Part shown: positions 5,658 to 57,583 of the stretch, in pieces
How the letters are laid out: the number at the start of each line of letters is the position of its first letter
Position numbering within the stretch: the first letter of the stretch is position 1
Assembly: GCF_006716865.1 (NCBI RefSeq)
Contig: NZ_VFPT01000004.1
Span: forward strand, 62,001-126,000
Direction of reading: 5' to 3'
Source: Roseinatronobacter monicus
Lineage (GTDB): Bacteria; Pseudomonadota; Alphaproteobacteria; Rhodobacterales; Rhodobacteraceae
DNA length: 64,000 nucleotides
The notes under the pieces: generated by a model
Seen by the model: only the letters and a program-made list of their open reading frames with translations
What the model was told of the DNA's origin: nothing
Databases searched by the model: none
Program-made: the position numbers and the translations under genes

Positions 5658-6752
5658 ATGGCATTCAAGCAGGTATCCGCCTCCATGGGAGAGCGGTCAG
5701 AGAGTCTATTGTCCGCGGACAATCACCGCCCAGAGCGTCACATCGTCATCGACACACTGCGTCAGGCAGCCCCATTGATTGGTCTTAAGGCGCCAGTCAT
5801 CGCGACACTAGATGTGATGCTATCGTGTCTCCCACCAACCAGGCAGCACAATACAGTCTTTGCGTCAAACGCTACGCTTGCGTTTCGCCGAAACGGAATA
5901 TCAGACCGAACAATTAGGCGTCATGCCGCAATTCTCCAAGAACTCGGACTGCTTGAACGCCGCGACAGCGCCAACCGGAAGAGATTCTGCCGTCAAAACT
6001 TAGCCGAGGGCACGGCCCTTAGATTCGGGTTTGACCTTACTCCGTTGTTTGAGCGCTTCGCAGAACTTTCTAAGCTTGCTGCACAGGCCGCTCATGAAAA
6101 CAATCAAAAGTCCTATCTGAAAGCAAAAATTCGAGCCGCGGCAAACGCTATACTGGACGCTGAACCGAGCAACGTAGACGCAACGGCAGCTATACGATCG
6201 CTCCGCAGAAGCCTTTCATTGGAGGATTGCCTCAATCTTCTAAACAGCCTCGACTTTGAAGCCATTGAAGCCGAGCAGCCTTGCGACAAAAGTAGCGTGC
6301 AAAAAGAAAAAATGTCCGGCAACGACGGCCAAAATGTCCGCCACCATCATAACTCACAAAAAGAACATACTGATATAGAAAGTGAGCAAAAATCAACCGC
6401 TCACCCAAAAGACCCCAAACCATTTCAAATTAGTGTTCTGGAGATACTAAGTGCATGTCCAGAGGCCGCACAGTTTTGTGTCGAGCCAGTGAAAACGATG
6501 AAAGACGTTGTAACACACGCTCGAACTCTAGCCCCAATGCTAGGGATCGACTCTAGAAACTACCAAGATGCACAGGAAAACTTGGGTATTGAAAGAGCTG
6601 CTCTTACCGTTTGGGCGATCATGCAGTTTCACGAAAAAATCCGAAAAGTAGGGGCGTACTTCCGTTCAATAACCTCTGGAAAAAAGAGCGAGGGCTTTCA
6701 TCCTGAAGACCTCATACGCAGGCTCTCCAGAGCAGAACCACAACCAGCTTAA
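5658..6752 (+). CDS. repC: RepC, replication initiator
   Basis: 364 residues. The ATG at 5658 (MAFKQVSASMGER) is chosen over an open frame from 5538, because RepC proteins start shortly before the conserved RPERHIVIDTLRQAAPLIGLKAP-type region, seen here near residue 24. Residues 70-120 hold the winged-helix segment (FRRNGISDRTIRRHAAILQELGLLERRDS). RepC initiates replication at an origin that normally lies inside its own coding sequence. The middle (about 230-270) is hydrophilic and low-complexity and the C-terminal 100 residues form the second conserved domain. A 16-bp palindrome is embedded near codons 17-22. Intact. Confidence 0.94.
   Translation: MAFKQVSASMGERSESLLSADNHRPERHIVIDTLRQAAPLIGLKAPVIATLDVMLSCLPPTRQHNTVFASNATLAFRRNGISDRTIRRHAAILQELGLLERRDSANRKRFCRQNLAEGTALRFGFDLTPLFERFAELSKLAAQAAHENNQKSYLKAKIRAAANAILDAEPSNVDATAAIRSLRRSLSLEDCLNLLNSLDFEAIEAEQPCDKSSVQKEKMSGNDGQNVRHHHNSQKEHTDIESEQKSTAHPKDPKPFQISVLEILSACPEAAQFCVEPVKTMKDVVTHARTLAPMLGIDSRNYQDAQENLGIERAALTVWAIMQFHEKIRKVGAYFRSITSGKKSEGFHPEDLIRRLSRAEPQPA
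5708..5723. promoter_or_regulatory. Candidate parS palindrome 1
   Basis: Perfect 16-bp palindrome ATTGTCCGCGGACAAT inside the 5' end of repC. The same 16 bp recur at 6799-6814. repABC replicons of Rhodobacterales carry group-specific perfect palindromes of this length as RepB-binding centromere sites; assigning this one is inference from identity, repetition and position. Confidence 0.7.
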
Positions 6753-13627: not shown

Positions 13628-13796
13628 CCAAGTCCTGCACCACCCTTGGAAGTCATCCTGTTTGACCAAAATGCGGCAGGCATGATAGTCAGCAAGAGGA
13701 CACATTCGCAGACTTCCCGCCATTTGTTCTCGATCAAGGTAAATTGCCTTGACAGGTGTTTTAAGGTTGATTTGTGCATCATCCGGAGTGGCGCAA

Positions 13797-16700
13797 ATGA
13801 CAGAAAACGGCAATGCAGGCCAGAACGCAGATACCGCGCCCAAGGTGGGTGACGTCGTCGCCCCCGCTGTGTCAAAACCAACCGCTGTCGCGCCCAAGAA
13901 CACGCTCGTCGTCGGAATAGGTGCATCAGCCGGAGGCATTCAGGCCCTCAAGGCGTTCTTCAGCACGATGCCGGACAATCCGGACATGACGTTCGTCGTG
14001 GTCACCCATCTGAGTCCGGAGCGTGCAAGCCTGCTGCATGAGGTGATCGGACATTTCACGACGCTGCCGGTTTCGGTGATAAAGGATGGGGACGCGGTCA
14101 TGCCGGGTACGGTGCATGTCATGCCCGAGAATGCAATCCTGTCGATCCGTGACGGCAAGCTGCGACTGATCGCGCCCGATCCCTTGCGGCGCGAACGCAA
14201 GCCGGTTGACGTGTTCCTGGCCGCTCTGGCGGCGGATCAGGGCGACAGAGCCATCGGGATCGTCTTGTCAGGGGGCGATGGTGACGGCACGCTCGGCGTC
14301 AAGGCGATCAAGCAGAATGGCGGGTTCACCTTTGCGCAGACGGCAGATGGGGGCGGGCCGAATAATCCTGAAATGCCCGCCAGTGCCATCGCCAGCGGCT
14401 GGGTCGACTTCGCGCTGCCCGCCGACCAAATGCCTGAAAAGTTGGTGCAGATCCAGCGCGATGCACCGAGACTGGTCTCATTGTTGCGGCGTGGCGAAAC
14501 GGGTGCCGCAAACGCTGAAGAAAAGCGTCTGCAAAACGAGATCGCGCAGCTTCTGCGGACCCATTCGCGCCATGATTTCACCGGCTACAAGAGCAAGACC
14601 TTCTTCCGTCGCGTGGCACGGCGCATGCAGGTCACGCATATGACCACGCCGGAGGCCTATCTTGGGTTGCTGCGTCGCGATCCGGCCGAGGTCATGGCGC
14701 TGTTTCGTGACCTGCTGATCAGCGTGACGGATTTTTTTCGCGATGCGGAGGCGTTCGACGCCCTGGCCACCCAGGTGATCCCGAAGCTGCTGCACGGACG
14801 TGGTGCGGATGAAACCGTGCGGATCTGGGTGCCGGGCTGTGCCACCGGCGAAGAGGTCTATTCGCTGGCAATCCTGATGCGCGAACAGATGCACGCTATG
14901 TCCCCGCATCCGCAGGTAAAGATCTTCGCCACCGACATCGACGAGCTGGCACTTTCGGTGGCGAGGGCGGCGCGCTATCCGCAGGAATTGCTGAAGGACC
15001 TGTCGCAAGAACGCAAGGCGCAGTTCTTCCGCAAGGATGGTGCGAGCTACGTGCTGGCGCCCGAGGTCCGCGACATGTGTATCTTCTCGCCGCACAGCAT
15101 CACCAGCGATCCGCCGTTTTCGCGGATGGACCTGATCTCGTGCCGCAACCTGCTGATCTATCTCGGGCGGGCGTTGCAAGAGCAGGTGATCTCGACGTTT
15201 CACTACGCGCTGAAACCCGGCGGCTATCTGTTCCTCGGCATGTCGGAAAGCATCAGCCAGCACGAGGATCTGTTCGCGCCAATCGACAAGAAACAGCGGA
15301 TCTTCCAGAGCCGTGATCTTAGCGACAAGCGGCCCAGAATACCGATCGGAATCCAGAAGATGGAGGGGGCACATCAGCGTTTCGATCGGGAAAAGACGAC
15401 GCCATCGCCGACGCACAGCAACCAGCTGCGCCTGCGGGTCATGAACCAACTGACGGATCGCCACAGTCCCGCGCACGTCGTGATCCGCGCAGAGGGTGAC
15501 ATCGTCTACTATTCGGCACGTACCGGGCGTTATCTCGACATCCCGAGCGGCGCGCCGACCCGGCAACTCTTTGACATCGCCCGGCATGATCTACGTCCCG
15601 ATCTGCGGGCAGCCCTGCGCGACGCGCAGAAGTCGGCACAGTCGGTGACGCGGCAAGCGATGATGTCGGATGGCGAAAAAGGTCAGCTCGTCGCCCTGAC
15701 AGTGGAGCCGCTTGGCGGAGGAAACGGCGACGACGCGCTGTTTCTCGTCCTGTTTCAACCCGGCGGTGTCGCAGGCGAGGACCTGATCGATGCCCGGCGT
15801 TCCGAGGCCGGACAGGCGGATACCAGGGCAACCGAGCGGGAGCTGCGCGAGGTGCGCGACCGGCTTCGCGGGACGGTCGAGGAATATGAAACTGCGCTGG
15901 AAGAACTGAAATCAACGAATGAGGAGCTGGTTTCGGTCGACGAAGAGGCGCAGTCGACGAACGAGGAACTTCAGGCCTCGAAGGAAGAGATGCAGTCGCT
16001 GAACGAGGAGCTCAGCACCGTCAATACCGAGCTAAACGACAAGGTCGATGAGCTTGACCGTGCCAATGTCGATCTGAAGAACCTCTACGAGGCGACCGGC
16101 ATCGCCACGGTGTTTCTCGACAAGGATCTGATGATCCGCAACTTCACGCCGGCCGCATCGACATTCTTCATGCTGCGTCGATCTGACATCGGGCGACCGC
16201 TGACCGAACTGGCCGGTGTTATCGAATATACGCGCCTTAAGGACGACATCAGTGGCGTTTTTGAGAGCGGCGAGATCGTCGAGCACAGGCTGGCCCCGAA
16301 CGACCTTGAGGGGCATTTCCTCGTGAGGTCTACGCCCTATTTCGATGACGACAAAATCACAGGCGTCGTGGTGACTTTTGTCGAAATCACCAATCTTGCC
16401 AAGGCCGAGGAACAGCAGAACATCCTCATTGCCGAACTGAACCACCGGGTCAAGAACATGCTGGCGGTGGTGCTGAGCATCGTGCGGGCGACACAGAAGT
16501 CGGCGACCTCGGTCGCTGGCTTCACCGAGGCGCCTTCTTCTCGTCTTCACAGCATGGCGGGGGCTTATGGGCTTGTTGCGAGCAGGTCATGGGCGGACGT
16601 GCCGCTGTACGATCTGGTCGAACAGGAAATTGCGGCCTTTGATGAAAACCGGATCGAGATCAGGGGGCCGCAGGTTCTGCTGTGCCCGGAGCAGGCGCTT

Positions 16701-37017: not shown

Positions 37018-37314
37018 ATGACCACCGTGACTAATCTCTGCACCCTCGAATATGTCGCGGAAATGCTCGGCGAGGACCTCGAGATGTTGGAGGCTGTCAT
37101 TTGGAATGATGACAACCTCAGTTATGGTGCGATCGTCAGCGTCCACACTGGAGCGGACGAATCCATCACGACCTTAACCGACGATGGTATCGAAGAGCTC
37201 AAAGACATGCTCAGCGATGCGCGCATATCACAGGATACATGGCATGCATTCCTCGAAGACTTCGTCGATGACCCCGAAATAATCGCACGCGTCAAGGATA
37301 AATGGCCGCGGTAG
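37018..37314 (+). CDS. Small acidic accessory protein of IS66 element 1
   Basis: 98 residues, strongly acidic, beginning MTTVTNLCTLEYVAEMLGED; it contains YGAIVSVHTGADESITTLTD and ends EIIARVKDKWPR. It follows tnpC by 9 bp and lies inside the IS66 inverted repeats, so it travels with the element. I know no function. Its 3' two-thirds and the IS66 end are repeated immediately downstream. Confidence 0.7.
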   Translation: MTTVTNLCTLEYVAEMLGEDLEMLEAVIWNDDNLSYGAIVSVHTGADESITTLTDDGIEELKDMLSDARISQDTWHAFLEDFVDDPEIIARVKDKWPR

Positions 37315-37538
37315 AAATCGGGCGGTTACGTTATGGTGCGATCGTCAGCGTCCACACTGGAGCGGACGAATCCATCACGACCTTAACCGACGATGGTATC
37401 GAAGAGCTCAAAGACATGCTCAGCGATGCGCGCATATCACAGGATACATGGCATGCATTCCTCGAAGACTTCGTCGATGACCCCGAAATAATCGCACGCG
37501 TCAAGGATAAATGGCCGCGGTAGAAATCGGGCGGTTAC
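37121..37538. repeat. Perfect 209-bp tandem duplication
   Basis: 37121-37329 and 37330-37538 are identical by direct reading. Each unit holds the last 64 codons of the 98-residue gene plus the 15-bp IS66 right tip, so the element has two right ends; the 8-bp target duplication abuts the outer one. Confidence 0.97.
37302..37523 (+). pseudogene. Truncated duplicate of the IS66 accessory gene
   Basis: Created by the 209-bp tandem duplication: an ATG overlapping the end of the first copy opens a 73-residue frame whose last 64 residues equal the C-terminus of the upstream protein; the first nine come from the duplicated IS66 tip. No ribosome site was arranged for it; expression is doubtful. Confidence 0.7.
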
Positions 37539-37590
37539 GATTGAGGGAACTTTCGGGGGGCAGGTCAAATGCCTTGAAGCGCGACCGATA

Positions 37591-44572: not shown

Positions 44573-45175
44573 TCAGAGGCGTTTGAGCGCAGCTTTTGGT
44601 TTACGCGGCTTCGGGGCCCACTTTTTGGCGAGACGCTCGAAGTTGTCGAGGATGCGGCCGATTTCGGCCTCATCAGGATCGAACTTCCCCCCATGCCATT
44701 CCAGCATCCGGTTATGTTCTTCGTGCTTGGGGTCTGCCATGGCGTCAACGAAGTCGGCGTAGCCGAGGAACCCACCTACATCTTCAGGGGGGCGGGCCCC
44801 GATAGCCCTGACAAGACGCGGGTAGTCGGCACCCGGGATGGCATCATCGATTTTCTCGACCTTGATCACATGGTGCCAGTTGTCGCCAAAATCATAGATG
44901 TAATGGATGGTCTTGGTGCCGACGTCTTCCAGCACATCGATCAGGCTGGTTTTACTGGCAGGCAGCGGGCCGTCGTAATAGCCGTCAGGATCTGGCACAC
45001 CCCAGCCAACGCCGCCGGCTCGGAACTCGTAAAGGTGGCTGTCGGTCCAGCCCATGGCGGCCTGGATCACATCGTGCAGACGGTTCAGCTTGATCTTCAG
45101 TGGCACATCGAAGCGCCGCAACACCTGAGGCTCGACGTCAGATAATGTCACCTTGAGGCGCGCAACCAGGCTCAT
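44573..45175 (-). CDS. Plasmid pRiA4b ORF-3 family protein
   Basis: 200 residues. LVARLKVTLSDVEPQVLRRF, LHDVIQAAMGWTDSHLYEF and YIYDFGDNWHHVIKVEKI are the hallmark blocks of the pRiA4b ORF-3 family. Its start overlaps the tnpC stop by 4 bp, so it is translationally coupled to an IS66 transposase and lies within that element. The family's molecular function is unknown; it often travels with IS66 elements. Intact. Confidence 0.9.
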   Translation of the reverse strand: MSLVARLKVTLSDVEPQVLRRFDVPLKIKLNRLHDVIQAAMGWTDSHLYEFRAGGVGWGVPDPDGYYDGPLPASKTSLIDVLEDVGTKTIHYIYDFGDNWHHVIKVEKIDDAIPGADYPRLVRAIGARPPEDVGGFLGYADFVDAMADPKHEEHNRMLEWHGGKFDPDEAEIGRILDNFERLAKKWAPKPRKPKAALKRL

Positions 45176-46839
45176 GCAGCAATCCTCTTCAATTCAGTTG
45201 CGGCCTTCCAATGCCAAGGCAGCAATTCATGCACGCGCGATACCGGCATATCCGGCAGGCGGGCGAGGACATCGGCAAGCCATGCCTGCGGGTCGATGTC
45301 ATTCATCTTTGCCGTGACGATAAGGGTATACATGAAGGCCGCCCTGTCGCCACCACGTTCCGACCCTGCAAAAAGCCACGACTTTCTGCCCAATGCGATG
45401 CCTCTGAGAGCGCGCTCGGCGGCATTGTTCGTCATGCACAGGCGCCCATCATCAAGGAATGCAGTAAAGGCGTCCCAGCGACCCGTCCCATTAAGCATGT
45501 AGTTGATCGCCTTGGCGACAGGGTTGTGCTTTGACATCCGGGCCCGCTCGGCCTGCATCCAGTCACGCAGATCGTCGACCAGCGGCGCGACCCGATGCTG
45601 GCGGACTTCGTGGCGCTCTGCGGCGGACAGGCCGGTGATTTCACGCTCGACGGCAAAGATCGCATCGATCCGCATCACAGCGTCCAGCGCGATGGGAGAT
45701 ATCTCCTCTGCTACCTTCTTGCCCTTGCGGGCTGTGGCCTTGATATCTGCCAGCTCGAAGAACTTGCGTCTGGCATGGCTCCAGCACAGTGCTGCGCGCA
45801 CCGGACCCGGGCTTCGATCTGCCAGATAGAGATCATTGTAACCGCCATAGACGTCCGATTGCAGCACACCATGCCACCCGGCCAGGTGCTTATTGGGATG
45901 GATCATCTGACGATCAGGCGAGAACTTGAAGAAAGCAGCAGGCGGCGCGCCCCCATGCCACGGCCGGTCATCGCGCACATAGGTCCACAGCCGCGCGGTC
46001 TTTGTGCCCCCGCGCGCCCAAAGTGGCACGGTCGTGTCATCACCATGCAGACGGCTCCCATCCAGCACATGGCTTTCGATCAGCGCATGGATGGGAGCCA
46101 GTGCCACACAGGCATGACCGATCAGATCAGCCAGAGTGGACAGGCTGAGATCAATGCCTTCTCGCGCAATGCGCTCGGATTGCCGATTGAGGGGTTGGTG
46201 CTGTCCATATTTGTCGAAGGCGATCATGGCGATCAACTGTGGCCCGGCCCAACCGCGCGGAATGGCATGGAACGGGACTGGCGGTTGGCTGATCTTCTCG
46301 CAGGCCCGGCAGGTGAACTTCTCCCGAACCGTCTGGATCACCTTCCACTGGCGGGGGATCACTTCCAGCGTCTCGGTGACATCCTCGCCCATCTTCACGA
46401 TCCGGTCCGAGCCACAGCAGGTGCAACTGGTCGGCGCCTCAACCACCACACGTTCGCGCGGCAGGTGGTCGGGAAAGGGTTTGCGCACGGGCTTGCGCCG
46501 CGTGAAGGCGCGCACGGTGCTGGTCTTGTCCTGCGCTTCGGCCTGTTCAGCCGCCAGCGCATCTTCGGTGGCCGCGGCTTCCAATTCCTCAAGCTGCAAT
46601 TCCAGCTGATCGATCAGTCGCGCGCGGCGCTCGGAGGAGATACCGTATTTGTCGCGCCGCAGTTTGGCGATCTCCAGCTTCAATTCCTGGATCATCGCTT
46701 CCGTGCAGGAGGCAAGGGCGCGGGCCCGGGCCAATTCAGCTTCCGCAGCTTGCGCACGGGCTTGTGCAGCCTCGGCCGAGGCTGTTTGCGCAGCAAGTGC
46801 GGCGCGCAATTCAGCGATTTGCAGGGCGGTATCTGACAT
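45172..46839 (-). CDS. tnpC: IS66 TnpC transposase of element 2
   Basis: 555 residues, intact. N-terminal coiled coil (AQTASAEAAQARAQAAEAEL), zinc ribbon CTCCGSDRIV...CRACEKI, DDE core with LHGDDTTVPLW (Asp), LQSDVYGGYNDLY (Asp), and CMTNNAAERALRGIALG (Glu), then the conserved LLPWHWK tail. Distinct subgroup from TnpC of element 1. Confidence 0.95.
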   Translation of the reverse strand: MSDTALQIAELRAALAAQTASAEAAQARAQAAEAELARARALASCTEAMIQELKLEIAKLRRDKYGISSERRARLIDQLELQLEELEAAATEDALAAEQAEAQDKTSTVRAFTRRKPVRKPFPDHLPRERVVVEAPTSCTCCGSDRIVKMGEDVTETLEVIPRQWKVIQTVREKFTCRACEKISQPPVPFHAIPRGWAGPQLIAMIAFDKYGQHQPLNRQSERIAREGIDLSLSTLADLIGHACVALAPIHALIESHVLDGSRLHGDDTTVPLWARGGTKTARLWTYVRDDRPWHGGAPPAAFFKFSPDRQMIHPNKHLAGWHGVLQSDVYGGYNDLYLADRSPGPVRAALCWSHARRKFFELADIKATARKGKKVAEEISPIALDAVMRIDAIFAVEREITGLSAAERHEVRQHRVAPLVDDLRDWMQAERARMSKHNPVAKAINYMLNGTGRWDAFTAFLDDGRLCMTNNAAERALRGIALGRKSWLFAGSERGGDRAAFMYTLIVTAKMNDIDPQAWLADVLARLPDMPVSRVHELLPWHWKAATELKRIAA

Positions 46840-46898
46840 GGCAAATCTTTACCATAGACGCCAAGAAAGGCCAATAAAAACAGGCGTTTCATCGCAGA

Positions 46899-47438
46899 TT
46901 ATCCAGCCGTTTTGGGCCTCTGCGTCCAGCGTGGATTTCTCCAGTCTATGCCCTCCAGAAGATAACCAAGCTGGGCTGATGATATCGCCACCGCGGTTCC
47001 GTCCTGGCTCACAGGCCAGATGAACTTACCTGCCTCGAGGCGTTTCACATACAGCGACATACCGACGCCATCATGCCACAAAAGTTTCACCAGATCACCT
47101 TTGCGGCCCCGGAAGCAGAAGATTTCTCCACCATGTGTCACGGGCGGTTGCGACGGAGGCACAGGGGGCAGACCTTCAGAAGATGGCCCATCCTCCTGGG
47201 GAACAAGGCGCATGAAGTGCGCGGCGCATCCAAGCATCCCATACTTGTGCCGATAGCGCCAATCGTAGAGCATCGACCGCGAGATATCATGGCGCCGCGC
47301 TACCTCGGCCAATGTCACGCCGTCGCAATGGCTTTCCTCAACGATCCGGATCTTCTCATCATCCGTCCAACGGCGGCGACGGCCAGTGTCAGAAACCGAC
47401 AAAACTTGAATGCGGGGGGTGTTATCGTGTGCGTCCAT
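46899..47438 (-). CDS. Fused IS66 TnpA-TnpB with internal deletion
   Basis: 179 residues from ATG 47438. Residues 1-90 are TnpA-like (GRRRRWTDDEKIRIVEESHC; LAEVARRHDISRSMLYDWRY). After PPVTHGGE the chain passes directly into the middle of TnpB: FCFRGRKGDLVKLLWHDGVG and MSLYVKRLEAGKFIWP, ending WTQRPKTAG. The end of TnpA and the start of TnpB (the VRVWLA...TDMR block) are missing without loss of frame, so a deletion of about 200-250 bp fused the two genes. tnpC follows after 59 bp. Whether the fusion works is unknown. Confidence 0.85.
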   Translation of the reverse strand: MDAHDNTPRIQVLSVSDTGRRRRWTDDEKIRIVEESHCDGVTLAEVARRHDISRSMLYDWRYRHKYGMLGCAAHFMRLVPQEDGPSSEGLPPVPPSQPPVTHGGEIFCFRGRKGDLVKLLWHDGVGMSLYVKRLEAGKFIWPVSQDGTAVAISSAQLGYLLEGIDWRNPRWTQRPKTAG

Positions 47439-47730
47439 AAGGACACTCGATAATCGATCAAACATTGACCAAGCCAGACGGCCCTCGGCGAATGCTTACC
47501 GTCAGTTCGCAACTCAAACCGATTTTCATGTAAAAAGCTTTGGCGCGCACCAGATCCGGTGCTTACCACCCGCCGCACACGCGCGATTCCTTAAGTATTG
47601 CCCGGAAATACGGAATGTTTTGGCATGGCAAAATGAAACCAGTTCTTGACGTTTCGTCGAATGCCGACGCGTGATGGAATGCGCACGTTGCCGGACAACT
47701 CGGTCTACGATCAAAATTGCGCGCCCAACA

Positions 47731-48924
47731 TCAGAGATTGGAGCTTGGTGTCCCGAGTTCTCGCCAAGTCATAGCTGTTCTCTCGATCAGAAATCTGTTC
47801 GCTTCAGTCAGCGCTGCCTTGCTTAGGTTTTCATATTCTTCCTTATCGGACAATATATCGCGTATCTCTTTTTCCCAGTCGTCTATAGGGCCCTTGGGAA
47901 CCCGCGAGGTGTAGCTGCCGGTAACCTTGTCTGACGCCAAGACAGAATCAAAGCGAAGAGTCCGCCCGCCAAGTCCGATCTGCTCCTTGATCCCGCCGAC
48001 ATCATATCCGAGACACGGAACGCCCAAGGCCATAGCCTCAGAAATTACTTTACCCGCAGCTTCGTTCACCAACGATGGCATAACCAAAAGCGCGGAACGC
48101 CTAAGCAACTTTCGAATATCGCTTTGCCAAGGAGCCCAGAGCAGGTTCTCAAAGTGATCCACTTTAATGCCACTCTTTCTCCAGAAGCTTCTCTTACCGC
48201 GACTCTCAATACATAGGAACAGTCGATTCTCGTTTTTGAACCTTTGCGACATGGCCATAAAAATGTGGCCGCCCTTGTCGGGCGTAGGGTTTACCAAGGT
48301 AACAAACCCATAATTTTGCCGTGTCGTATAGTCTATGTCACCAAAACTTACCGGCGTGAATGGCAGAGAAGTGTTTATTTTAACACAAAGCTTACCAAAC
48401 ATTCTCTGATAATGATCACCAATAAATTTTGATGGGACCACCAGATGGTCAGATATTTCGATCAGAGGTTTGTGAGACTCAACAAGGGCCGCACTCCCGA
48501 GGTAGAAAGCAATCTTCGCCCCAATCGCATACGCTGTTTCCAGGATCGGCATCATCTCTTTAGAACCAAAAAAGATAACAAGATCTGGCTTCTCCTGATC
48601 CAAGTAAGCCTTGGTCAACTTGATATAGTTCCGAAGGTCATCAGAGGTCAGATTTCTGGTATCTTTACTTACTCCAACATACAGGTGATGCGAGATACCT
48701 TTACTGATATACTTGAAAACTTGCCCAGGCAAAACTTTCTGGCTTGAGCCTTTTCTAATTTCTTCGTCATGAGTATAGTTCTCACCTACATCGTAACAGT
48801 TTATGCAGTAGCTTGAACAAGTATCACCGTTCGCCGCTAAAAACTCCATTACTGTCTTTAACTCCAGCGCCGCACCGCTATCTCGATCTATGAGAGACTT
48901 GAACGACAAAAAAACTATTTTCAT
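47731..48924 (-). CDS. GT4-type glycosyltransferase
   Basis: 397 residues. The N-terminal Rossmann domain begins MKIVFLSFKSLIDRDSGAAL; the C-terminal half has the GT-B/GT4 donor site: NPTPDKGGHIF, LVMPSLVNEAAGKVISEAMA (E-x7-E motif) and LGVPCLGYDVGGIKEQI. Cytoplasmic, no membrane helix. It transfers a sugar from a nucleotide sugar to an unknown acceptor. Last gene of a minus-strand run, overlapping the sulfotransferase-like gene by 4 bp. By position its acceptor may be the adhesin upstream or a surface glycan. GC content is lower than in the IS region. The 230 bp between it and IS66-2 (47500-47730) show no gene. Confidence 0.85.
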   Translation of the reverse strand: MKIVFLSFKSLIDRDSGAALELKTVMEFLAANGDTCSSYCINCYDVGENYTHDEEIRKGSSQKVLPGQVFKYISKGISHHLYVGVSKDTRNLTSDDLRNYIKLTKAYLDQEKPDLVIFFGSKEMMPILETAYAIGAKIAFYLGSAALVESHKPLIEISDHLVVPSKFIGDHYQRMFGKLCVKINTSLPFTPVSFGDIDYTTRQNYGFVTLVNPTPDKGGHIFMAMSQRFKNENRLFLCIESRGKRSFWRKSGIKVDHFENLLWAPWQSDIRKLLRRSALLVMPSLVNEAAGKVISEAMALGVPCLGYDVGGIKEQIGLGGRTLRFDSVLASDKVTGSYTSRVPKGPIDDWEKEIRDILSDKEEYENLSKAALTEANRFLIERTAMTWRELGTPSSNL

Positions 48925-49553
48925 TTCAGCCAGCTTTCAGCGGCGTGGCACTGCGCGTGCGTTCCTGAAATCCCGAGCGCTTTAAGAATCGTTCTGCGGC
49001 GCGGTAAGGATGTTGTGAAATCTCTGAATGATACTGTACTGTAAGAAGCTTCTATCTCAATCAAGCTTGAAAAAATTGTCGAGTAAAGTTTCTGCGCGCC
49101 CGCTGCCCCATAGCTAGGGTACCACTTCCGTCGCTTGCGCGTCTCCTCGATTTTAATGAAGGGTCGTGTCACAACCAGAAAATCGGGGTTGCAAACGGCA
49201 TTTATCTCTTTGATCAGGTATGCTGACAGCGGGTGCTTGAGAACAATATGCGATGCTCCAGACGCCCTGGCTTCTATTGATCGTTCATTCAACCATGACC
49301 TCAACCAATTACAGAATGCTTCGCGATCTCCATGTTGCTTTAACGTCAATCCACCAATGACTTTTCGGAGCTCAATAGCGAAATCCACAGGCTCGTGACT
49401 ATTTGGAGTTCTTGGATCATTTGTCTGCACATGCGGTGGGCAACTGTATCCCCCTACTCGAGTAAGGTATCCTGTCACGGCGGTCGTCCCAGATGACCAT
49501 GCTCCTAGAACACAGACGACCGGAACAAGAGGCGCGTTATCCACCTCCGTCAT
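48921..49553 (-). CDS. Sulfotransferase-like P-loop protein
   Basis: 210 residues. VVCVLGAWSSGTTAVTGYLTRVGG has the PAPS 5'-phosphosulfate-binding pattern of sulfotransferases (GxxxSGTT), and SHIVLKHPLSAYL plus FLVVTRPFIKIEETRKRRKW resemble the 3'-phosphate loop and following helix. Shorter than most carbohydrate sulfotransferases (about 250-300). No signal peptide, so cytoplasmic. Overlaps both neighbours by 4 bp, which implies translational coupling with a membrane protein and a glycosyltransferase; a role in sulfating a glycan is inferred. Confidence 0.7.
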   Translation of the reverse strand: MTEVDNAPLVPVVCVLGAWSSGTTAVTGYLTRVGGYSCPPHVQTNDPRTPNSHEPVDFAIELRKVIGGLTLKQHGDREAFCNWLRSWLNERSIEARASGASHIVLKHPLSAYLIKEINAVCNPDFLVVTRPFIKIEETRKRRKWYPSYGAAGAQKLYSTIFSSLIEIEASYSTVSFRDFTTSLPRRRTILKALGISGTHAQCHAAESWLK

Positions 49554-50032
49554 TGGAAGCAGCTTTTCGCCGATACTTGAAAAGTTTCAACAACCCTGTC
49601 ATCGATCAAGTATTGATGTTCGAGAACCCCCCCGAGAGCCAGGAAACTGACACGCCGCGCGCCGCTACAAGACGAGGACACCACGAACGACCTGTCTGGA
49701 ATCAGGCTCACGTCACGGACGCTATATAAATTCGCCAGATGCAGGCCATTCCAGCGGATATCGTTCAAAATAAGCCCGTCTTCGATCTCGGTCGGTAGTC
49801 CCGAAACATCAAGTATTGTTTTTACATAGCTCGATAACGCTATCTGATCATCCGCTTTTCTCGACCAGAACACGCTCAGGAAAACTGCTTGCAGAAGAAT
49901 CAAAGCCAAGAGGCTGACTATAACGAGACGGTCCGACCGCAATAAGCCAAAAAAAGCGACAGCGGACATGACCGCGATAAGGATTGATAGAACAAAGAGA
50001 GTAGGGTTGCTGTTGAATAGTTCAATGAGCAC
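49550..50032 (-). CDS. Small membrane protein with extracytoplasmic domain
   Basis: 160 residues. Two N-terminal transmembrane helices at about 12-30 (FVLSILIAVMSAVAFFGLL) and 35-55 (LVIVSLLALILLQAVFLSVF), then a 100-residue polar domain with two Cys (SSSCSGARR and the C-terminal SAKSCFQ) that could pair outside the cytoplasm. No family recognised. It overlaps the sulfotransferase-like gene by 4 bp and follows the next gene by 15 bp, so it belongs to the same transcription unit. Confidence 0.65.
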   Translation of the reverse strand: MLIELFNSNPTLFVLSILIAVMSAVAFFGLLRSDRLVIVSLLALILLQAVFLSVFWSRKADDQIALSSYVKTILDVSGLPTEIEDGLILNDIRWNGLHLANLYSVRDVSLIPDRSFVVSSSCSGARRVSFLALGGVLEHQYLIDDRVVETFQVSAKSCFQ

Positions 50033-50047
50033 TTTGTGAGCCTATTT

Positions 50048-50638
50048 TTAGGGGCGTGTTAAAAGATAAAGAAGCTCTCCGTCAGGTGTCAGCCACGGTT
50101 GCGCTCCGCGTCTTTGATTTATTGCACGGATTGCGTTGGCTGTCTGGTTCCCGAATGCGCCATCAACCTGTAGCCCCGCGCCAAACCGATTGAGCGCTGT
50201 CTGCAATGCTGTACTGGCTTCGCTATAGAACTGCACCGATCGACCGTTGGGATCTTCCAATGTTGTTACAGCAGGAGAGTTTCTGACCCAGAAGGGGCGA
50301 AGGCGACCAATTGCCTCCAGCAAAGCTGTTTCGAATTTTACAGTATTGTTTTCGTCACAGATGAAGTTGACCATTGCCAACAATTCCCAAGTGTCACCAA
50401 TCGGAAAAACGTCTATGAGCGAATTGGAACGCGCGGCCGCAGTTGCGTAGGCTGCGGTCCATTGCAGGAAAGCAGTCTTCTCCAATTGCCGTTGTTCATG
50501 CCTGACGACGGGTTGAAACTCCTGACAGGTAAAGGCACCCGCATTTCTTATATTCACAGGTTGACCGGGTGTCTGTCCAATGGCTTGAACCGTGAAAAGC
50601 ACAAAAGTAGCTGCGGTTAGCGATAGTATTCGGATCAT
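50048..50638 (-). CDS. Exported protein with peptidoglycan-binding-like C-terminus
   Basis: 196 residues. Signal peptide MIRILSLTAATFVLFTVQAIG with likely cleavage after residue 21. The N-terminal mature part has two Cys (FTCQEFQP, NFICDEN) as in small helical periplasmic domains. The C-terminal 65 residues (ALQTALNRFGAGLQVDGAFG, then NQTANAIRAINQRRGAQPWL) match the PG_binding_1 pattern, in which a helical bundle binds cell-wall peptide. It lies 15 nt after the terminator hairpin behind the adhesin gene. Its role could be anchoring or helping the adhesin through the wall; this is inference. Confidence 0.75.
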   Translation of the reverse strand: MIRILSLTAATFVLFTVQAIGQTPGQPVNIRNAGAFTCQEFQPVVRHEQRQLEKTAFLQWTAAYATAAARSNSLIDVFPIGDTWELLAMVNFICDENNTVKFETALLEAIGRLRPFWVRNSPAVTTLEDPNGRSVQFYSEASTALQTALNRFGAGLQVDGAFGNQTANAIRAINQRRGAQPWLTPDGELLYLLTRP

Positions 50639-50652
50639 GTATCACCCAAGAA

Positions 50653-50679
50653 AATGTCGGCTGCACCGCAGCCGACATT
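50653..50679 (-). terminator. Intrinsic terminator after the adhesin gene
   Basis: A 12-bp perfect stem AATGTCGGCTGC / GCAGCCGACATT with a 3-base loop; on the minus strand it is followed by TTTTCTT. It sits 21 bp after the adhesin stop and only 14 bp before the start codon of the next gene, leaving no room for a promoter between them. The four downstream genes therefore probably rely on read-through, so the hairpin would set their level below that of the adhesin. Confidence 0.85.
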
Positions 50680-50700
50680 CTTTAACATAAGCGGGTTTGA

Positions 50701-53700
50701 TTACCAAGACCAACCCATACCAACCGCAGCCCCAAGTCCACCTGTTCCGGAGTATTGAAGGGCACCATTCAGCAAGAAGTCATCGCCAATCCGCGCGCTA
50801 CCACCCAATGCAAATGCGGCCTGGCCATTATAGGCACCAACAGCCATCCCGAATGAGTAGTTGTCGTTGCGCTGGAGCTGTGGAAGCTGTGTCATTGCCA
50901 TCGTACCTGCAATGGCACTGCTCAGCTTCCCTTCCAAGGCCCCCAATTGACGAACGTTCACAGCGTCGAAGTCATCAACACCATCCGCGACGCCGGACAG
51001 TCTGACTGGCGCGCCGCCAGCACCCGAGAAGTTCACACCACCATTGGTCAGCGACATATTGGTCGTCCCACCAGTCACGACGGTCTCGGTTGTACCTGTA
51101 ACTGTTGTGGTTCCCCCCTGTGATACCATCCCAGAGCCGTTTTGCTGAAGCTCCACACGTGTCGATGTGACTTCAAGCATAGAAGCGTTTCCGGCACCGT
51201 CATCAACAACAAGGTTCATTCCAGTTCCGTTGACGTTCAGCAAGGTTTCGCCAACTTCAACTGTCAGCCTGTTGGTAATGTCAACTGTCCCTTGGAAAAC
51301 ACTGTTCCCAGATACTCCAAGATTGCTCTGCAGCGTCGTGTCGCCCGCAACATTCAGCGTGTCGTTCAGCTGCGTCGCGCCATCAACTTCCAGCGCGCCA
51401 GAGACATCAACATTGTCCTGGAACGTTGCAACACCGCTCACATTCAGCGTGTCGTTCAGCTCCGTCGCGCCTTCAACTGTCAGCGTGTCGTTCAGCTGCG
51501 TCGCGCCGGAGACAGCCAGATTGCCCGAGACATTCACGTCATCCTCGAAAGTCGCAACACCCGCCACATCCAGATCACCGTTCAGCGCGGTATCGCCGGA
51601 GACAGCCAGATTGCCCGAGACATTCACGTCATCCTCGAAAGTCGCAACACCCGCCACATCCAGATCACCGTTCAGCGCGGTATCGCCGGAGACAGCCAGA
51701 TTGCCCGAGACATTCACGTCATCCTCGAAAGTCGCAACACCCGCCACATCCAGATCACCGTTCAGCGCGGTATCGCCGGAGACAGCCAGATTGCCCGAGA
51801 CATTCACGTCATCCTCGAAAGTCGCAACACCCGCCACATCCAGATCACCGTTCAGCGCGGTATCGCCGGAGACAGCCAGATTGCCCGAGACATTCACGTC
51901 ATCCTCGAAAGTCGCAACACCCGCCACATCCAGATCACCGTTCAGCGCGGTATCGCCGGAGACAGCCAGATTGCCCGAGACATTCACGTCATCCTCGAAA
52001 GTCGCAACACCCGCCACATCCAGATCACCGTTCAGCGCGGTATCGCCGGAGACAGCCAGATTGCCCGAGACATTCACGTCATCCTCGAAAGTCGCAACAC
52101 CCGCCACATCCAGATCACCATTCAGCGCGGTATCGCCGGAGACAGCCAGGTTGCCCGAGACATTCACGTCATCCTCGAAAGTCGCAACACCCGCCACATC
52201 CAGATCACCGTTCAGCGCGGTATCGCCGGAGACAGCCAGATTGCCCGAGACATTCACGTCATCCTCGAAAGTCGCAACACCCGCCACATCCAGATCACCA
52301 TTCAGCGCGGTATCGCCGGAGACAGCCAGGTTGCCCGAGACATTCACGTCATCCTCGAAAGTCGCAACACCCGCCACATCCAGATCGCCATTCAGCGCGG
52401 TATCGCCGGAGACAGCCAGATTGCCCGAGACATTCACGTCATCCTCGAAAGTCGCAACACCCGCCACATCCAGATCACCGTTCAGCGCGGTATCGCCGGA
52501 GACAGCCAGATTGCCCGAGACATTCACGTCATCCTCGAAAGTCGCAACACCCGCCACATCCAGATCACCGTTCAGCGCGGTATCGCCGGAGACAGCCAGA
52601 TTGCCCGAGACATTCACGTCATCCTCGAAAGTCGCAACACCCGCCACATCCAGATCACCGTTCAGCGCGGTATCGCCGGAGACAGCCAGATTGCCCGAGA
52701 CATTCACGTCATCCTCGAAAGTCGCAACACCCGCCACATCCAGATCACCGTTCAGCGCGGTATCGCCGGAGACAGCCAGGTTGCCCGAGACATTCACGTC
52801 ATCCTCGAAAGTCGCAACACCCGCCACATCCAGATCACCGTTCAGCGCGGTATCGCCGGAGACAGCCAGATTGCCCGAGACATTCACGTCATCCTCGAAA
52901 GTCGCAACACCCGCCACATCCAGATCGCCATTCAGCGCGGTATCGCCGGAGACAGCCAGATTGCCCGAGACATTCACGTCATCCTCGAAAGTCGCAACAC
53001 CCGCCACATCCAGATCACCATTCAGCGCGGTATCGCCGGAGACAGCCAGATTGCCCGAGACATTCACGTCATCCTCGAAAGTCGCAACACCCGCCACATC
53101 CAGATCACCGTTCAGCGCGGTATCGCCGGAGACAGCCAGATTGCCCGAGACATTCACGTCATCCTCGAAAGTCGCAACACCCGCCACATCCAGATCACCG
53201 TTCAGCGCGGTATCGCCGGAGACAGCCAGATTGCCCGAGACATTCACGTCATCCTCGAAAGTCGCAACACCCGCCACATCCAGATCACCGTTCAGCGCGG
53301 TATCGCCGGAGACAGCCAGATTGCCCGAGACATTCACGTCATCCTCGAAAGTCGCAACACCCGCCACATCCAGATCACCGTTCAGCGCGGTATCGCCGGA
53401 GACAGCCAGGTTGCCCGAGACATTCACGTCATCCTCGAAAGTCGCAACACCCGCCACATCCAGATCACCGTTCAGCGCGGTATCGCCGGAGACAGCCAGA
53501 TTGCCCGAGACATTCACGTCATCCTCGAAAGTCGCAACACCCGCCGCATCCAGATCGCCATTCAGCGCGGTATCGCCGGAGACAGCCAGGTTGCCCGAGA
53601 CATTCACGTCATCCTCGAAAGTCGCAACACCCGCCACATCCAGATCACCGTTCAGCGCGGTATCGCCGGAGACAGCCAGATTGCCCGAGACATTCACGTC

Positions 53701-55329
53701 ATCCTCGAAAGTCGCAACACCCGCCACATCCAGATCACCGTTCAGCGCGGTATCGCCGGAGACAGCCAGATTGCCCGAGACATTCACGTCATCCTCGAAA
53801 GTCGCAACACCCGCCACATCCAGATCACCGTTCAGCGCGGTATCGCCGGAGACAGCCAGATTGCCCGAGACATTCACGTCATCCTCGAAAGTCGCAACAC
53901 CCGCCACATCCAGATCACCGTTCAGCGCGGTATCGCCGGAGACAGCCAGATTGCCCGAGACATTCACGTCATCCTCGAAAGTCGCAACACCCGCCACATC
54001 CAGATCACCGTTCAGCGCGGTATCGCCGGAGACAGCCAGATTGCCCGAGACATTCACGTCATCCTCGAAAGTCGCAACACCCGCCACATCCAGATCACCG
54101 TTCAGCGCGGTATCGCCGGAGACAGCCAGATTGCCCGAGACATTCACGTCATCCTCGAAAGTCGCAACACCCGCCACATCCAGATCACCGTTCAGCGCGG
54201 TATCGCCGGAGACAGCCAGATTGCCCGAGACATTCACGTCATCCTCGAAAGTCGCAACACCCGCCACATCCAGATCACCGTTCAGCGCGGTATCGCCGGA
54301 GACAGCCAGATTGCCCGAGACATTCACGTCATCCTCGAAAGTCGCAACACCCGCCACATCCAGATCACCATTCAGCGCGGTATCGCCGGAGACAGCCAGA
54401 TTGCCCGAGACATTCACGTCATCCTCGAAAGTCGCAACACCCGCCACATCCAGATCACCGTTCAGCGCGGTATCGCCGGAGACAGCCAGATTGCCCGAGA
54501 CATTCACGTCATCCTCGAAAGTCGCAACACCCGCCACATCCAGATCACCGTTCAGCGCGGTATCGCCGGAGACAGCCAGATTGCCCGAGACATTCACGTC
54601 ATCCTCGAAAGTCGCAACACCCGCCACATCCAGTGTGCCGTCAACTTCGAGATCACCGACATCCAGTGTGTCGAAGGATATTGTGTCCACCGATTTGAGA
54701 TTGCCATCTGCATCGACGACAACCAAGCGTTCTGCGCTGGTTCCGACCTGCAGGACGTCCTGACCATCGATTTCGTCGCCACCGGCAGCGAGAACGCCCG
54801 CAGCGGTGATCATGTCTGCGCTGGTGCCGAGAACGATCTGGTTATCATCGGTTGTAGCTGCTCCGAACCCAATAGCTGTAGAAAAATTATGCGCAACGTT
54901 AACCTGGTTGCCAAAAGCTGCAGAGTTGTCCCCAGTCACGGTAGAATTGGCCCCAATCGCCGTCGAGAGCCTACCCGACACGTCGTTGCGCCGACCAAAC
55001 GTCGCCGAGAAATCTCCGGACACTGTGTTACCGACCCCAACCGCCGTCGAGCTGTTCGATGTAACACTATTATCGCGACCAATCGCCGTCGTATTATCCT
55101 GCTGCGCTGCATTATTTCTACCTATCGCCACCGCTGTAGTGGAACCGGTGGTGTTGTTCACTCCAATGTTTACCTGAGCAAACGCAGGCAATGCTCCGCC
55201 AATCGCCACCGAAAGCGCGATTACCGAACAAAAGGCCGGTGATGTCAAAACGTGTTTGTTGCGTTTGAATATCCGACCACCGCGATAATCCCGCTCTTGC
55301 ATGATCTCGAAACTTGTCTTGTTGTTCAT
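50701..55329 (-). CDS. YadA-like trimeric autotransporter adhesin with about 35 stalk repeats
   Basis: 1542 residues from ATG 55329, chosen for GAGGAAA 8-10 bp upstream (the frame is open from 55356). Long signal peptide of about 51 residues (HVLTSPAFCSVIALSVAIGG, then ALPAFAQ). Residues 53-190 are a YadA-type head of SxAIG/TAIG repeats (STAVGVGNTVSGDFSATFG; LSTAIGANSTVTGDNSAAFG). Residues 233-1273 are about 35 copies of a 30-residue unit containing GDLDVAGVATFEDDVNVSG and NLAVSGDTALN, then degenerate units. The end has SGVADGVDDFDAVNVRQLG and a YadA anchor (SSAIAGTMAMTQLPQL...NYSFGMAVGAYNGQAAFALG) finishing GMGWSW with a terminal aromatic residue. It should trimerise, form a 12-strand barrel in the outer membrane and display a long rod. 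Confidence 0.92.
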   Translation of the reverse strand: MNNKTSFEIMQERDYRGGRIFKRNKHVLTSPAFCSVIALSVAIGGALPAFAQVNIGVNNTTGSTTAVAIGRNNAAQQDNTTAIGRDNSVTSNSSTAVGVGNTVSGDFSATFGRRNDVSGRLSTAIGANSTVTGDNSAAFGNQVNVAHNFSTAIGFGAATTDDNQIVLGTSADMITAAGVLAAGGDEIDGQDVLQVGTSAERLVVVDADGNLKSVDTISFDTLDVGDLEVDGTLDVAGVATFEDDVNVSGNLAVSGDTALNGDLDVAGVATFEDDVNVSGNLAVSGDTALNGDLDVAGVATFEDDVNVSGNLAVSGDTALNGDLDVAGVATFEDDVNVSGNLAVSGDTALNGDLDVAGVATFEDDVNVSGNLAVSGDTALNGDLDVAGVATFEDDVNVSGNLAVSGDTALNGDLDVAGVATFEDDVNVSGNLAVSGDTALNGDLDVAGVATFEDDVNVSGNLAVSGDTALNGDLDVAGVATFEDDVNVSGNLAVSGDTALNGDLDVAGVATFEDDVNVSGNLAVSGDTALNGDLDVAGVATFEDDVNVSGNLAVSGDTALNGDLDVAGVATFEDDVNVSGNLAVSGDTALNGDLDAAGVATFEDDVNVSGNLAVSGDTALNGDLDVAGVATFEDDVNVSGNLAVSGDTALNGDLDVAGVATFEDDVNVSGNLAVSGDTALNGDLDVAGVATFEDDVNVSGNLAVSGDTALNGDLDVAGVATFEDDVNVSGNLAVSGDTALNGDLDVAGVATFEDDVNVSGNLAVSGDTALNGDLDVAGVATFEDDVNVSGNLAVSGDTALNGDLDVAGVATFEDDVNVSGNLAVSGDTALNGDLDVAGVATFEDDVNVSGNLAVSGDTALNGDLDVAGVATFEDDVNVSGNLAVSGDTALNGDLDVAGVATFEDDVNVSGNLAVSGDTALNGDLDVAGVATFEDDVNVSGNLAVSGDTALNGDLDVAGVATFEDDVNVSGNLAVSGDTALNGDLDVAGVATFEDDVNVSGNLAVSGDTALNGDLDVAGVATFEDDVNVSGNLAVSGDTALNGDLDVAGVATFEDDVNVSGNLAVSGDTALNGDLDVAGVATFEDDVNVSGNLAVSGDTALNGDLDVAGVATFEDDVNVSGNLAVSGDTALNGDLDVAGVATFEDDVNVSGNLAVSGDTALNGDLDVAGVATFEDDVNVSGNLAVSGDTALNGDLDVAGVATFEDDVNVSGNLAVSGDTALNGDLDVAGVATFEDDVNVSGNLAVSGDTALNGDLDVAGVATFEDDVNVSGNLAVSGATQLNDTLTVEGATELNDTLNVSGVATFQDNVDVSGALEVDGATQLNDTLNVAGDTTLQSNLGVSGNSVFQGTVDITNRLTVEVGETLLNVNGTGMNLVVDDGAGNASMLEVTSTRVELQQNGSGMVSQGGTTTVTGTTETVVTGGTTNMSLTNGGVNFSGAGGAPVRLSGVADGVDDFDAVNVRQLGALEGKLSSAIAGTMAMTQLPQLQRNDNYSFGMAVGAYNGQAAFALGGSARIGDDFLLNGALQYSGTGGLGAAVGMGWSW
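51511..54633. repeat. Tandem array of 34.7 units of 90 bp
   Basis: Unit length 90 bp by direct reading (for example ATCCTCGAAA every 90 bp from 51541 to 54601, 35 occurrences). Units are almost identical; only a few silent or near-silent sites vary (CAGATTGCC or CAGGTTGCC, GATCACCG, GATCACCA or GATCGCCA, one GCCGCATCC for GCCACATCC). The variants recur in separate, non-adjacent units, a sign of recent unequal exchange. The array is in frame with the adhesin. Confidence 0.97.
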
Positions 55330-55380
55330 TGCCTGTTTCCTCGATTGCAGCCGCACTATGGCTTTTTGTTTTCCTGAATC

Positions 55381-55887
55381 TTACGAGCCGTCCACGCCGG
55401 AGCGCGTGTGCGGCGGACAGTCAGCGACCAAGACGATGACATGCCGCCCCGTCATCGAATTCTTTGTGCTGTCGTGTGTCGCGTGACAACGCTCAGACAC
55501 AGGTTTCGTACGCTCCATGGACTCTGTTCCCATGGAAACAATTGCGAAATCCGCCAGCTTCGTGATGTCGGGTTTGCCGCGAAAGCCGTATCCGCCTTGC
55601 GCAATACCAGTGGTCGATACAAGACCGTTATCTGTTTCGGTGGATATGTCAGACCTAATGCCAAAAAATCCACGATTGGATGTGCGCGCGACAATTTCGA
55701 CCTGGGGCGCGCGCTCTTGGCTGTTCAGCGAATGCCCACGGTCTGCTGAAGCATTGTCAAACTTTGTCGCACCCGCATGAGAGGCCAGAGCGCATGCTAC
55801 GACAAAAGCCAATACGCTTCTTGTGCGCCGTCGGTTGCCCAAAGTTTCTATTGCCGGAATATTCATTATTACTTCGCGTCTTTTCAT
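55381..55887 (-). CDS. Small exported protein preceding the adhesin
   Basis: 168 residues from ATG 55887; an internal ATG at 55866 is equally possible, as neither has a strong ribosome site. Signal peptide TRSVLAFVVACALASHAGAT, cleaved near residue 40. The mature part has VEIVARTSNRGFFGIRSDIS and GIAQGGYGFRGKPDITKLAD, and a C-terminal half with two Cys (SERCHATHD, VLVADCPPH). No family recognised. It ends 51 bp before the adhesin start on the same strand, so it is probably the first gene of the unit and could be an export or assembly partner. Confidence 0.65.
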   Translation of the reverse strand: MKRREVIMNIPAIETLGNRRRTRSVLAFVVACALASHAGATKFDNASADRGHSLNSQERAPQVEIVARTSNRGFFGIRSDISTETDNGLVSTTGIAQGGYGFRGKPDITKLADFAIVSMGTESMERTKPVSERCHATHDSTKNSMTGRHVIVLVADCPPHTRSGVDGS

Positions 55888-56483: not shown

Positions 56484-57583
56484 GGCGTTGTTGCATGGAC
56501 CCTACGGTTTCTGTTAGGAGGCCGTTTCCCTGATCGATTGGATAGCGTTGATGCCGCATAAATTCAATGACGGCCGCCGGCACAAATTCGAGAAGAAGCG
56601 GTACCGCATTACGAACTGGGCTGACTATAACGAAAGCCTGCGTCGGCGGGGCGATGTAACAATTTGGCTAAGCCCCGAGGTTGAAGCTGCATGGCGTGCA
56701 GAGCGCCGCAAGACACGGGGTGGCCAGCCAGTTTATTCTGACCTGTCTATTGTGACCTGCCTGACACTTGGCATCGTTTACAACCAGCCGCTGCGCCAGA
56801 CCGAAGGGTTTGTAGGCAGCCTTGTGAAGCTGATGGGGCTGGATTTGCTGGTGCCCGACTACTCGACCCTGTCACGTCGCGGGGCCGGTTTGATCTTGCC
56901 GATGAAAGCGCGCGCGTCGACGGATGGCCCGATTCATCTTGTCGTAGATAGCACGGGCCTGAAGATATTTGGCGAAGGCGAGTGGCTGGAAAACAAGCAC
57001 AAAACAAAGGCCAAACGCAAATCCTGGCGCAAGCTGCATCTTGGGCTGGACCTTGTCACCGGCGAAATTGCCTGCTCTGAACTGACCACCGATGATGTGG
57101 GTGATCCGACCGCCTTGCCAGAGCTTCTGGATCAGATTGACGGGGACGTGACACGCTTCATCGCCGACGGCGCCTATGACGGCGACCCGACCAGCGACTT
57201 GCTCGTGAAGCTGTTTGGGGTTGATGTCGAGATCACTATTCCGCCTCCCAAGACTGCGGTTCTCAGCGCCGAGGCTGTGGGCAATCCAACGCTGCGCGAC
57301 CAGCGCATTGCCGCAATACGCACAGGCGGGCGTATGGCCTGGCAGGTGAGCAGCGGATACAATCAGCGCAGCCGCGGTGAAACACAAATGGGTCGCTGGA
57401 AGATGGTCATCGGCCCCAAACTGAAAGCGCGCAGCTTTCCCAACCAGAAAACAGAAGCCAAGATCGGCACCCACATTCTGAACAAGATGACCGAACTTGG
57501 CCGTGCCAAGTTCGAGGTCGTCGCTTGACCAAATGAGCGGGTAAGGGCAAACTCAAACCATCGTAGGTCCGTGCAACAACGCC
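56484..57583 (+). mobile_element. IS5-family (IS903-like) element 2
   Basis: 1100 bp. Tips GGCGTTGTTGCATGGACC (56484) and GGCGTTGTTGCACGGACC read leftward from 57583. No target duplication: 9 bp outside are GCTTGAAAC on the left and CCCTCGAAT on the right. The right flank is exonuclease I coding sequence, the left flank is unrelated AT-rich DNA, so an adjacent deletion or rearrangement is likely. Confidence 0.93.
56551..57528 (+). CDS. IS5-2 transposase (IS903 group)
   Basis: 325 residues from ATG 56551 (an open frame begins at TTG 56548). DDE core of the IS903 type: PIHLVVDSTGLKIFGEGEW (Asp), TRFIADGAYDGDPT (Asp), and YNQRSRGETQMGRWKMVIG with the Glu. N-terminal KFEKKRYRITNWADYNESLR is typical. 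Frame intact, so the element may be active. Confidence 0.95.
   Translation: MPHKFNDGRRHKFEKKRYRITNWADYNESLRRRGDVTIWLSPEVEAAWRAERRKTRGGQPVYSDLSIVTCLTLGIVYNQPLRQTEGFVGSLVKLMGLDLLVPDYSTLSRRGAGLILPMKARASTDGPIHLVVDSTGLKIFGEGEWLENKHKTKAKRKSWRKLHLGLDLVTGEIACSELTTDDVGDPTALPELLDQIDGDVTRFIADGAYDGDPTSDLLVKLFGVDVEITIPPPKTAVLSAEAVGNPTLRDQRIAAIRTGGRMAWQVSSGYNQRSRGETQMGRWKMVIGPKLKARSFPNQKTEAKIGTHILNKMTELGRAKFEVVA

Follow-up and report, generated by a model that had tools for sequence, protein, structure and literature searches.

A trimeric autotransporter gene set with coupled sulfotransferase and GT4 glycosyltransferase genes in Roseinatronobacter monicus: a candidate adhesin-modification operon

Glycosylation of type V adhesins takes two cytoplasmic forms, HMW1C/NGT and BAHT (Aah/TibC), with trimeric autotransporters among the substrates (PMC8151025, sections available). 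A six-gene block at 47731-55887 of a 64,000-nucleotide stretch of Roseinatronobacter monicus contig NZ_VFPT01000004.1 (hereafter the window) resembles them, as those sections portray them, in possessing a dedicated, predicted cytoplasmic glycosyltransferase (GT), in the described systems often co-transcribed with the adhesin; there the enzyme is a GT41 or a heptosyltransferase, whereas here a GT4 gene is overlapped by a sulfotransferase gene. The same sections contain no mention of sulfation in either system (PMC8151025). We regard the locus as a variant of dedicated adhesin glycosylation whose new element would be sulfation; the operon is real and conserved, and we infer its function with moderate confidence.

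The Gram-positive enzymes GtfA and SdgA/SdgB are GT4 adhesin O-glycosyltransferases encoded next to Ser-rich repeat adhesins, to our knowledge without a sulfotransferase. Haloarchaeal S-layer glycoproteins are prokaryotic surface proteins bearing sulfated sugar, formed by an archaeal, lipid-linked pathway with different enzymes. RaxST of Xanthomonas is a bacterial sulfotransferase dedicated to an exported product and uses 3'-phosphoadenosine-5'-phosphosulfate (PAPS); it acts on tyrosine, whereas the adhesin passenger described here has none. A literature search (titles and abstract beginnings among the matches listed, few subscription papers) returned none in which a bacterial sulfotransferase is connected with an autotransporter or an HMW1C-type system.

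Gene set and protein identities

The block comprises the following features, all on the minus strand:

55381-55887, minus: small basic exported protein, 168 aa, with a signal segment and a possible lipobox VVAC by eye
50701-55356, minus: predicted trimeric autotransporter adhesin, 1551 aa (YadA_anchor match)
51580-54549, minus: repeat block of the adhesin, 33 contiguous 30-aa units GDLDVAGVATFEDDVNVSGNLAVSGDTALN, residues 270-1259
50704-50883, minus: YadA-like outer-membrane anchor of the adhesin (Pfam match)
50048-50638, minus: predicted exported peptidoglycan (PG)-binding protein, 196 aa, with an N-terminal hydrophobic segment and a C-terminal PG_binding_1 domain
49550-50032, minus: protein with two transmembrane (TM) segments, 160 aa (open reading frame call and hydropathy)
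48921-49553, minus: predicted PAPS-type sulfotransferase, 210 aa (family, fold and motifs)
47731-48924, minus: GT4 glycosyltransferase, 397 aa (Glycos_transf_1 match)

Strand, order and positions agree with the first-pass annotation of this DNA. The genes are separated by 24, 62 and 15 bp, then by two overlaps (two-TM/sulfotransferase, 49550-49553; sulfotransferase/GT4, 48921-48924) that measure the 4 bp it had reported, and this spacing suggests a single transcript. No polymerase, flippase or sugar-nucleotide domain was found among the six proteins in a Pfam scan.

By its C-terminal YadA-like anchor (YadA_anchor, residues 1492-1551, 43.1 bits against a cut-off of 22.7, E 4.6e-11; 49.9 bits in the genome-wide search), the adhesin is a predicted type Vc trimeric autotransporter; it had been announced as a giant one, a generous word for 1551 aa and 153 kDa. 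Its pI is 4.05, a hydrophobic segment spans residues 35-64, and residues 62-1470 contain zero Tyr and a single Lys. YadA_head is matched below threshold (23 bits, cut-off 25, E 1e-4); a relative (L074:2-880) matches it above the cut-off with 44.6 bits. Tandem Repeats Finder reports an array at 51489-54633 with a period of 90, 34.9 copies and 98% matches. In protein, 32 of the 33 units are identical to GDLDVAGVATFEDDVNVSGNLAVSGDTALN and the remaining one carries V5A, every unit holding one NVS sequon plus Ser/Thr. In DNA the units fall into seven distinct types; of 16 substitutions, 15 are synonymous, so that the array seems recent or homogenised, with selection acting on the protein. Long open frames also cover the array on the plus strand in all three frames (51142-55242, 51167-54763 and 51426-54698), a trap for gene callers.

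The small exported protein has no Pfam match, and the hydropathy scan gave no segment above threshold. Over 37 aa near its C-terminus it is 40.5% identical (E 8.5e-6, two-sequence comparison) to a 171-aa Loktanella protein (L074:927-1439) that precedes an adhesin N-terminus.

The 210-aa protein is, by family, fold and motifs, a predicted PAPS-type sulfotransferase. Its own Sulfotransfer_3 score is below the Pfam cut-off (16.7 bits against 27, E 0.0093), and the label "sulfotransferase-like", weak for this protein alone, gains its backing from the family and the fold: 18 of 32 family members match Sulfotransfer_3 at E <= 0.01 (best 7.7e-14), and the sulfotransferase fold was recovered. PAPS sulfotransferases are marked by a 5'-phosphosulfate-binding (5'-PSB) loop, a catalytic Lys, and a 3'-phosphate-binding (3'-PB) Arg with a Ser/Thr eight residues on; in the family alignment G22, K106, R130 and T/S138 are each present in 32 of 32 sequences. 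An APS kinase is present in the host genome, and in a Rhizobium metagenome-assembled genome (MAG) a relative is followed by an APS (adenosine 5'-phosphosulfate) kinase gene (L008:10001-11319).

The glycosyltransferase matches Glycos_transf_1 (51.6 bits, cut-off 26.4) and has the E-x7-E motif of GT4 enzymes, E288 and E296 being invariant in four of four sequences. Assignment to GT41 (HMW1C/NGT), to BAHT, whose heptosyltransferase domain is of GT9 type, or to the SdgA type was rejected: at E <= 1 there was no GT41 match in Pfam, where only GT4-type domains and a sub-threshold DUF2625 appeared, and no heptosyltransferase match in Pfam or NCBIfam, while the SdgA model NF047880 scored 16.2 bits against a cut-off of 800. 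Hydropathy scans found no hydrophobic segment in either transferase.

The PG-binding gene directly follows the autotransporter, and its exported product matches PG_binding_1 with 25.9 bits (cut-off 23). The N-domain, helical and weakly HdeA-like, contains Cys38 and Cys94, both invariant, as would suit a periplasmic helper; TpgA has other domains than this combination. The two-TM protein carries a C-terminal domain, probably on the periplasmic side, with two Cys kept in three relatives (L003, L029 and L048). Described parallels, in the available parts of PMC8151025 and PMC13082670, are AtaA-TpgA, in which the autotransporter gene shares a transcript with that of a periplasmic PG-binding partner, and SadA-SadB, an autotransporter helped by an inner-membrane protein; SadB is a lipoprotein, whereas the candidate helper here is a two-TM protein. 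The likeness to TpgA, as these parts present it, is one of position and cell-wall-binding domain, not of sequence comparison.

A relative of the PG-binding protein with the same arrangement of two domains follows a 525-aa exported protein in genome G475 (L047:8441-8953), which lacks the GT4 subfamily at E <= 1e-35. At least seven of 20 other Rhodobacterales autotransporter genes (L052, L053, L054, L055, L057, L058 and L060) are followed at once by an exported-looking protein of 157-181 aa, possibly a further accessory partner, that carries a AVNHGNWTGNYTVLRDYAS-like motif.

Conservation and genomic company of the transferases

Five genes, from the adhesin C-terminus through the PG-binding, two-TM and sulfotransferase genes to GT4, keep their order in two other genomes, a 6.2-kb contig of an "Erythrobacter" MAG (L003) and genome G215 (L029), which is more than chance would give. 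Identities to L003 and L029 are 70 and 75% for the C-terminal 110 aa of the adhesin, 61 and 62% for the PG-binding protein, 34 and 28% for the two-TM protein, 52 and 44% for the sulfotransferase and 49 and 45% for GT4. Both contigs end within the adhesin (L003 also has a run of N inside the repeats), and the comparison covers the adhesin C-terminus onward, not the first gene. The third other locus with anchor and PG-binding protein, in Loktanella G337, lies on two contigs: one ends with an adhesin C-terminus and the PG-binding protein, the other with an adhesin N-terminus, a relative of the small exported protein and a divergent GT4. Relatives with transferases never linked to the adhesin had been named as a refutation in the first-pass annotation; the linkage exists in two of these three loci, and in the third for GT4, beside the N-terminal end, and not for the sulfotransferase in the stretches fetched; other sulfotransferase genes are located elsewhere in that genome.

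In the order, 22 of 390 genomes carry a YadA anchor, at 24 places (the window, L029, L045 and 21 places within 20 fetched loci); one of these loci, L048, has a two-TM relative directly after the adhesin (E 1.3e-6). The sulfotransferase turned up in one of 147 relatives, the own genome, and by alignment search in 12 of the 390 genomes, five of them strong (own, G215, G224, G315 and G505); the seven weak ones (E 2e-6 to 5e-4) were dropped. The GT4 subfamily (E <= 1e-35) is present in five of the 390 and, in another draw, in one of 271, again the own genome. The PG-binding family (E <= 1e-10) likewise occurs in five of 390, and four of these five also have the GT4 subfamily (chance 2.6e-8 if independent), with both models partly built from these genomes and the GT4 of G337 as the sole fresh match. 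Database rows for sulfotransferase and PG-binding protein on size-matched contigs number five beyond the own one, against about 0.7 expected and a maximum of five in 2000 simulations, a hint of further linked copies on contigs themselves unseen.

The sulfotransferase was followed through 18 loci: the window, 14 from genome contigs, and G215, G224 and G505 (the G315 gene was taken as the same locus as L007). It directly adjoins a glycosyltransferase gene in ten of them. The neighbour is a GT4 in the window, L003, L029, L004, L005 and L015 (sulfotransferase frame broken), and a GT41 in L013, L014, L030 and L031. In L031 (G505, 13724-16411) GT41 and sulfotransferase are fused into one 895-aa protein; L004 has two GT4 genes, plus a GT41 gene 2.8 kb off on the other strand. 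Against O-GlcNAc transferases, the best E values of the L014 and L030 GT41 proteins are about 1e-61 and 1e-66, respectively; against HMW1C-like enzymes they reach only about 1e-7 to 1e-11. Beside the GT41/sulfotransferase genes of L014, L030 and L031 stands a large, repetitive protein of 1253-2110 aa that looks secreted by eye (in L031, 7199-13531, 2110 aa, next to the fusion protein); ABC and HlyD genes lie downstream in L030, and HlyD upstream in L031. L004 has a comparable protein 3.6 kb before the first GT4 gene. The sulfotransferase tree (17 rows, without L015; two of its long branches meet) places the GT41-neighbour loci in two separated groups, which implies repeated origin or exchange of the coupling; L009-L012 are near-copies in it.

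Seen from GT4, five of six subfamily loci (the window, L003, L029, G390, G228 and G337) have a sulfotransferase within 2.5 kb, of three Pfam-type families, with none in view in G337, which points to a common function, the sulfation of a sugar. G390 (L046:3381-12680) contains a 1.6-kaa exported repeat protein with no Pfam match and no autotransporter anchor, a PG-binding relative, GT4, a possible second glycosyltransferase (sub-threshold) and a Sulfotransfer_2 protein, whose gene is 1.8 kb from GT4. In G228 a Sulfotransfer_1 gene is 2.4 kb from GT4, with a P450 and a by-eye barrel-like protein in between. With three (G390) and five (G228) distinct sulfotransferase genes of three Pfam families, simple arithmetic gives a chance neighbour within 5 kb about 0.7% and 1.6% probability.

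Proposed function and alternatives

The reading we prefer, at a probability of about 0.56, is a dedicated adhesin-modification operon, in which GT4 would glycosylate the adhesin and the sulfotransferase would sulfate the sugar. This reading draws on the gene order shared with L003 and L029, the co-occurrence of the GT4 and PG-binding families, the glycosyltransferase genes beside the sulfotransferase in ten of 18 loci, the sulfotransferase genes near GT4 in G390 and G228, the APS kinases, and a block free of polymerase, flippase and sugar-nucleotide domains. In the cytoplasm, GT4 would attach a sugar to the repetitive adhesin at Ser/Thr (or Asn), after which the PAPS sulfotransferase would sulfate this adhesin-borne sugar. 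PAPS and nucleotide sugars are cytoplasmic and neither transferase has a hydrophobic segment, which makes modification before Sec export the simplest order, as on the two established adhesin routes (PMC8151025); the modified chain would then leave via Sec and assemble as a type Vc trimer. A passenger free of Tyr makes sugar the most likely site of the sulfate. The PG-binding protein might tether the anchor to the cell wall, as TpgA does with AtaA. Export might be aided by the two-TM protein with its conserved Cys, a role like that of SadB. Sulfated sugars had been proposed on the adhesin or on a surface glycan; the protein-type GT41 partners of the sulfotransferase family, including the fusion, tilt this toward protein, with the adhesin itself as candidate acceptor. 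If true, sulfate added before export would be further chemistry beyond the two known adhesin routes and would create a strongly anionic surface fibre, relevant to biofilms and to bacterial sulfated glycoproteins.

Several observations weigh against this. Eight of the 18 sulfotransferase loci (L006-L012 and L016) have no neighbouring glycosyltransferase, as judged for L010-L012 by tblastn with the window GT4 alone and for the rest also by scanning between one and four neighbours of each with Pfam. The sulfotransferase hidden Markov model (HMM) had no match in the G337 stretches, and 20 of 20 other autotransporter loci, searched with the sulfotransferase, GT4 and PG-binding HMMs rather than Pfam-scanned for other transferase kinds, had none to any of the three: autotransporters as such need none of these families. 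The repeat N-sequon varies among relatives by eye, the GT4 superfamily is huge and uses many acceptors, and the 13 solved GT4 relatives listed include no enzyme named a protein glycosyltransferase.

A wider reading, to which we give slightly less than even odds, is that one PAPS sulfotransferase family serves an undescribed class of bacterial protein-glycan sulfation systems, each with a protein glycosyltransferase (O-GlcNAc transferase-type GT41, even fused, or GT4) and a large repetitive protein exported by type Vc or type I secretion, forming a sulfated-sugar coat on a surface fibre or layer. The repeated coupling of the family to glycosyltransferases, some of protein-modifying type, is observed; the fused GT41-sulfotransferase would be a candidate for the enzymatic synthesis of sulfated glycopeptides.

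The transferases could instead decorate lipopolysaccharide (LPS), capsule or a glycolipid, co-inherited with the adhesin as both serve surface attachment. GT4 enzymes often build LPS or exopolysaccharide, weak NCBIfam matches of this one include EpsE and two LPS core transferases, its solved relatives include N-acetylglucosaminyl-malate synthases and RfaG, and some sulfotransferase relatives are solitary. We nevertheless consider it unlikely, given six genes without other polysaccharide genes, 4-bp overlaps in a conserved order behind the adhesin, and sulfotransferase relatives coupled or fused to O-GlcNAc transferase-type GT41. That another operon product (the PG-binding, two-TM or small exported protein) or peptidoglycan is the acceptor would suit the co-occurrence of the GT4 and PG-binding families and G390, where GT4, the possible second glycosyltransferase and a sulfotransferase follow a PG-binding relative and the large exported protein is anchorless; that set is likewise headed by an exported protein of 1.6 kaa, though, and the GT41-type loci L014, L030 and L031 adjoin a large, repetitive, apparently secreted one, which renders this improbable. 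A tyrosylprotein sulfotransferase acting directly on the adhesin is highly improbable for a passenger devoid of Tyr.

Plasmid and mobile-element setting

45172-47465, minus: IS66 transposase genes directly downstream, cargo boundary
56548-57528, plus: DDE transposase upstream, cargo boundary
3265-6752, plus: repA (ParA-type, 3265-4467) and repC (RP-C, 5538-6752)

The host contig measures 223,839 bp and, judging from its repA- and repC-type genes, is probably a repABC plasmid. Transposase genes on both flanks make the description of the locus as self-contained a fair one; a DDE_3 transposase, which we take to be IS630-like, and a PRiA4_ORF3 gene also lie downstream beside the IS66 genes. An assembly of unrelated cargo genes between insertion sequences, to which these flanks and the G+C of the GT4 gene (0.459, whole window 0.558) might point, deserves the least credence of all, as two other contigs carry the same five genes in unchanged order, 28-75% identical. 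The suggested search for this gene order on plasmids, run over 72,556 plasmid records, returned no match either to the block or to any of the proteins it encodes. Elsewhere in the window, positions 37121-37539 contain a perfect 209-bp tandem duplication.

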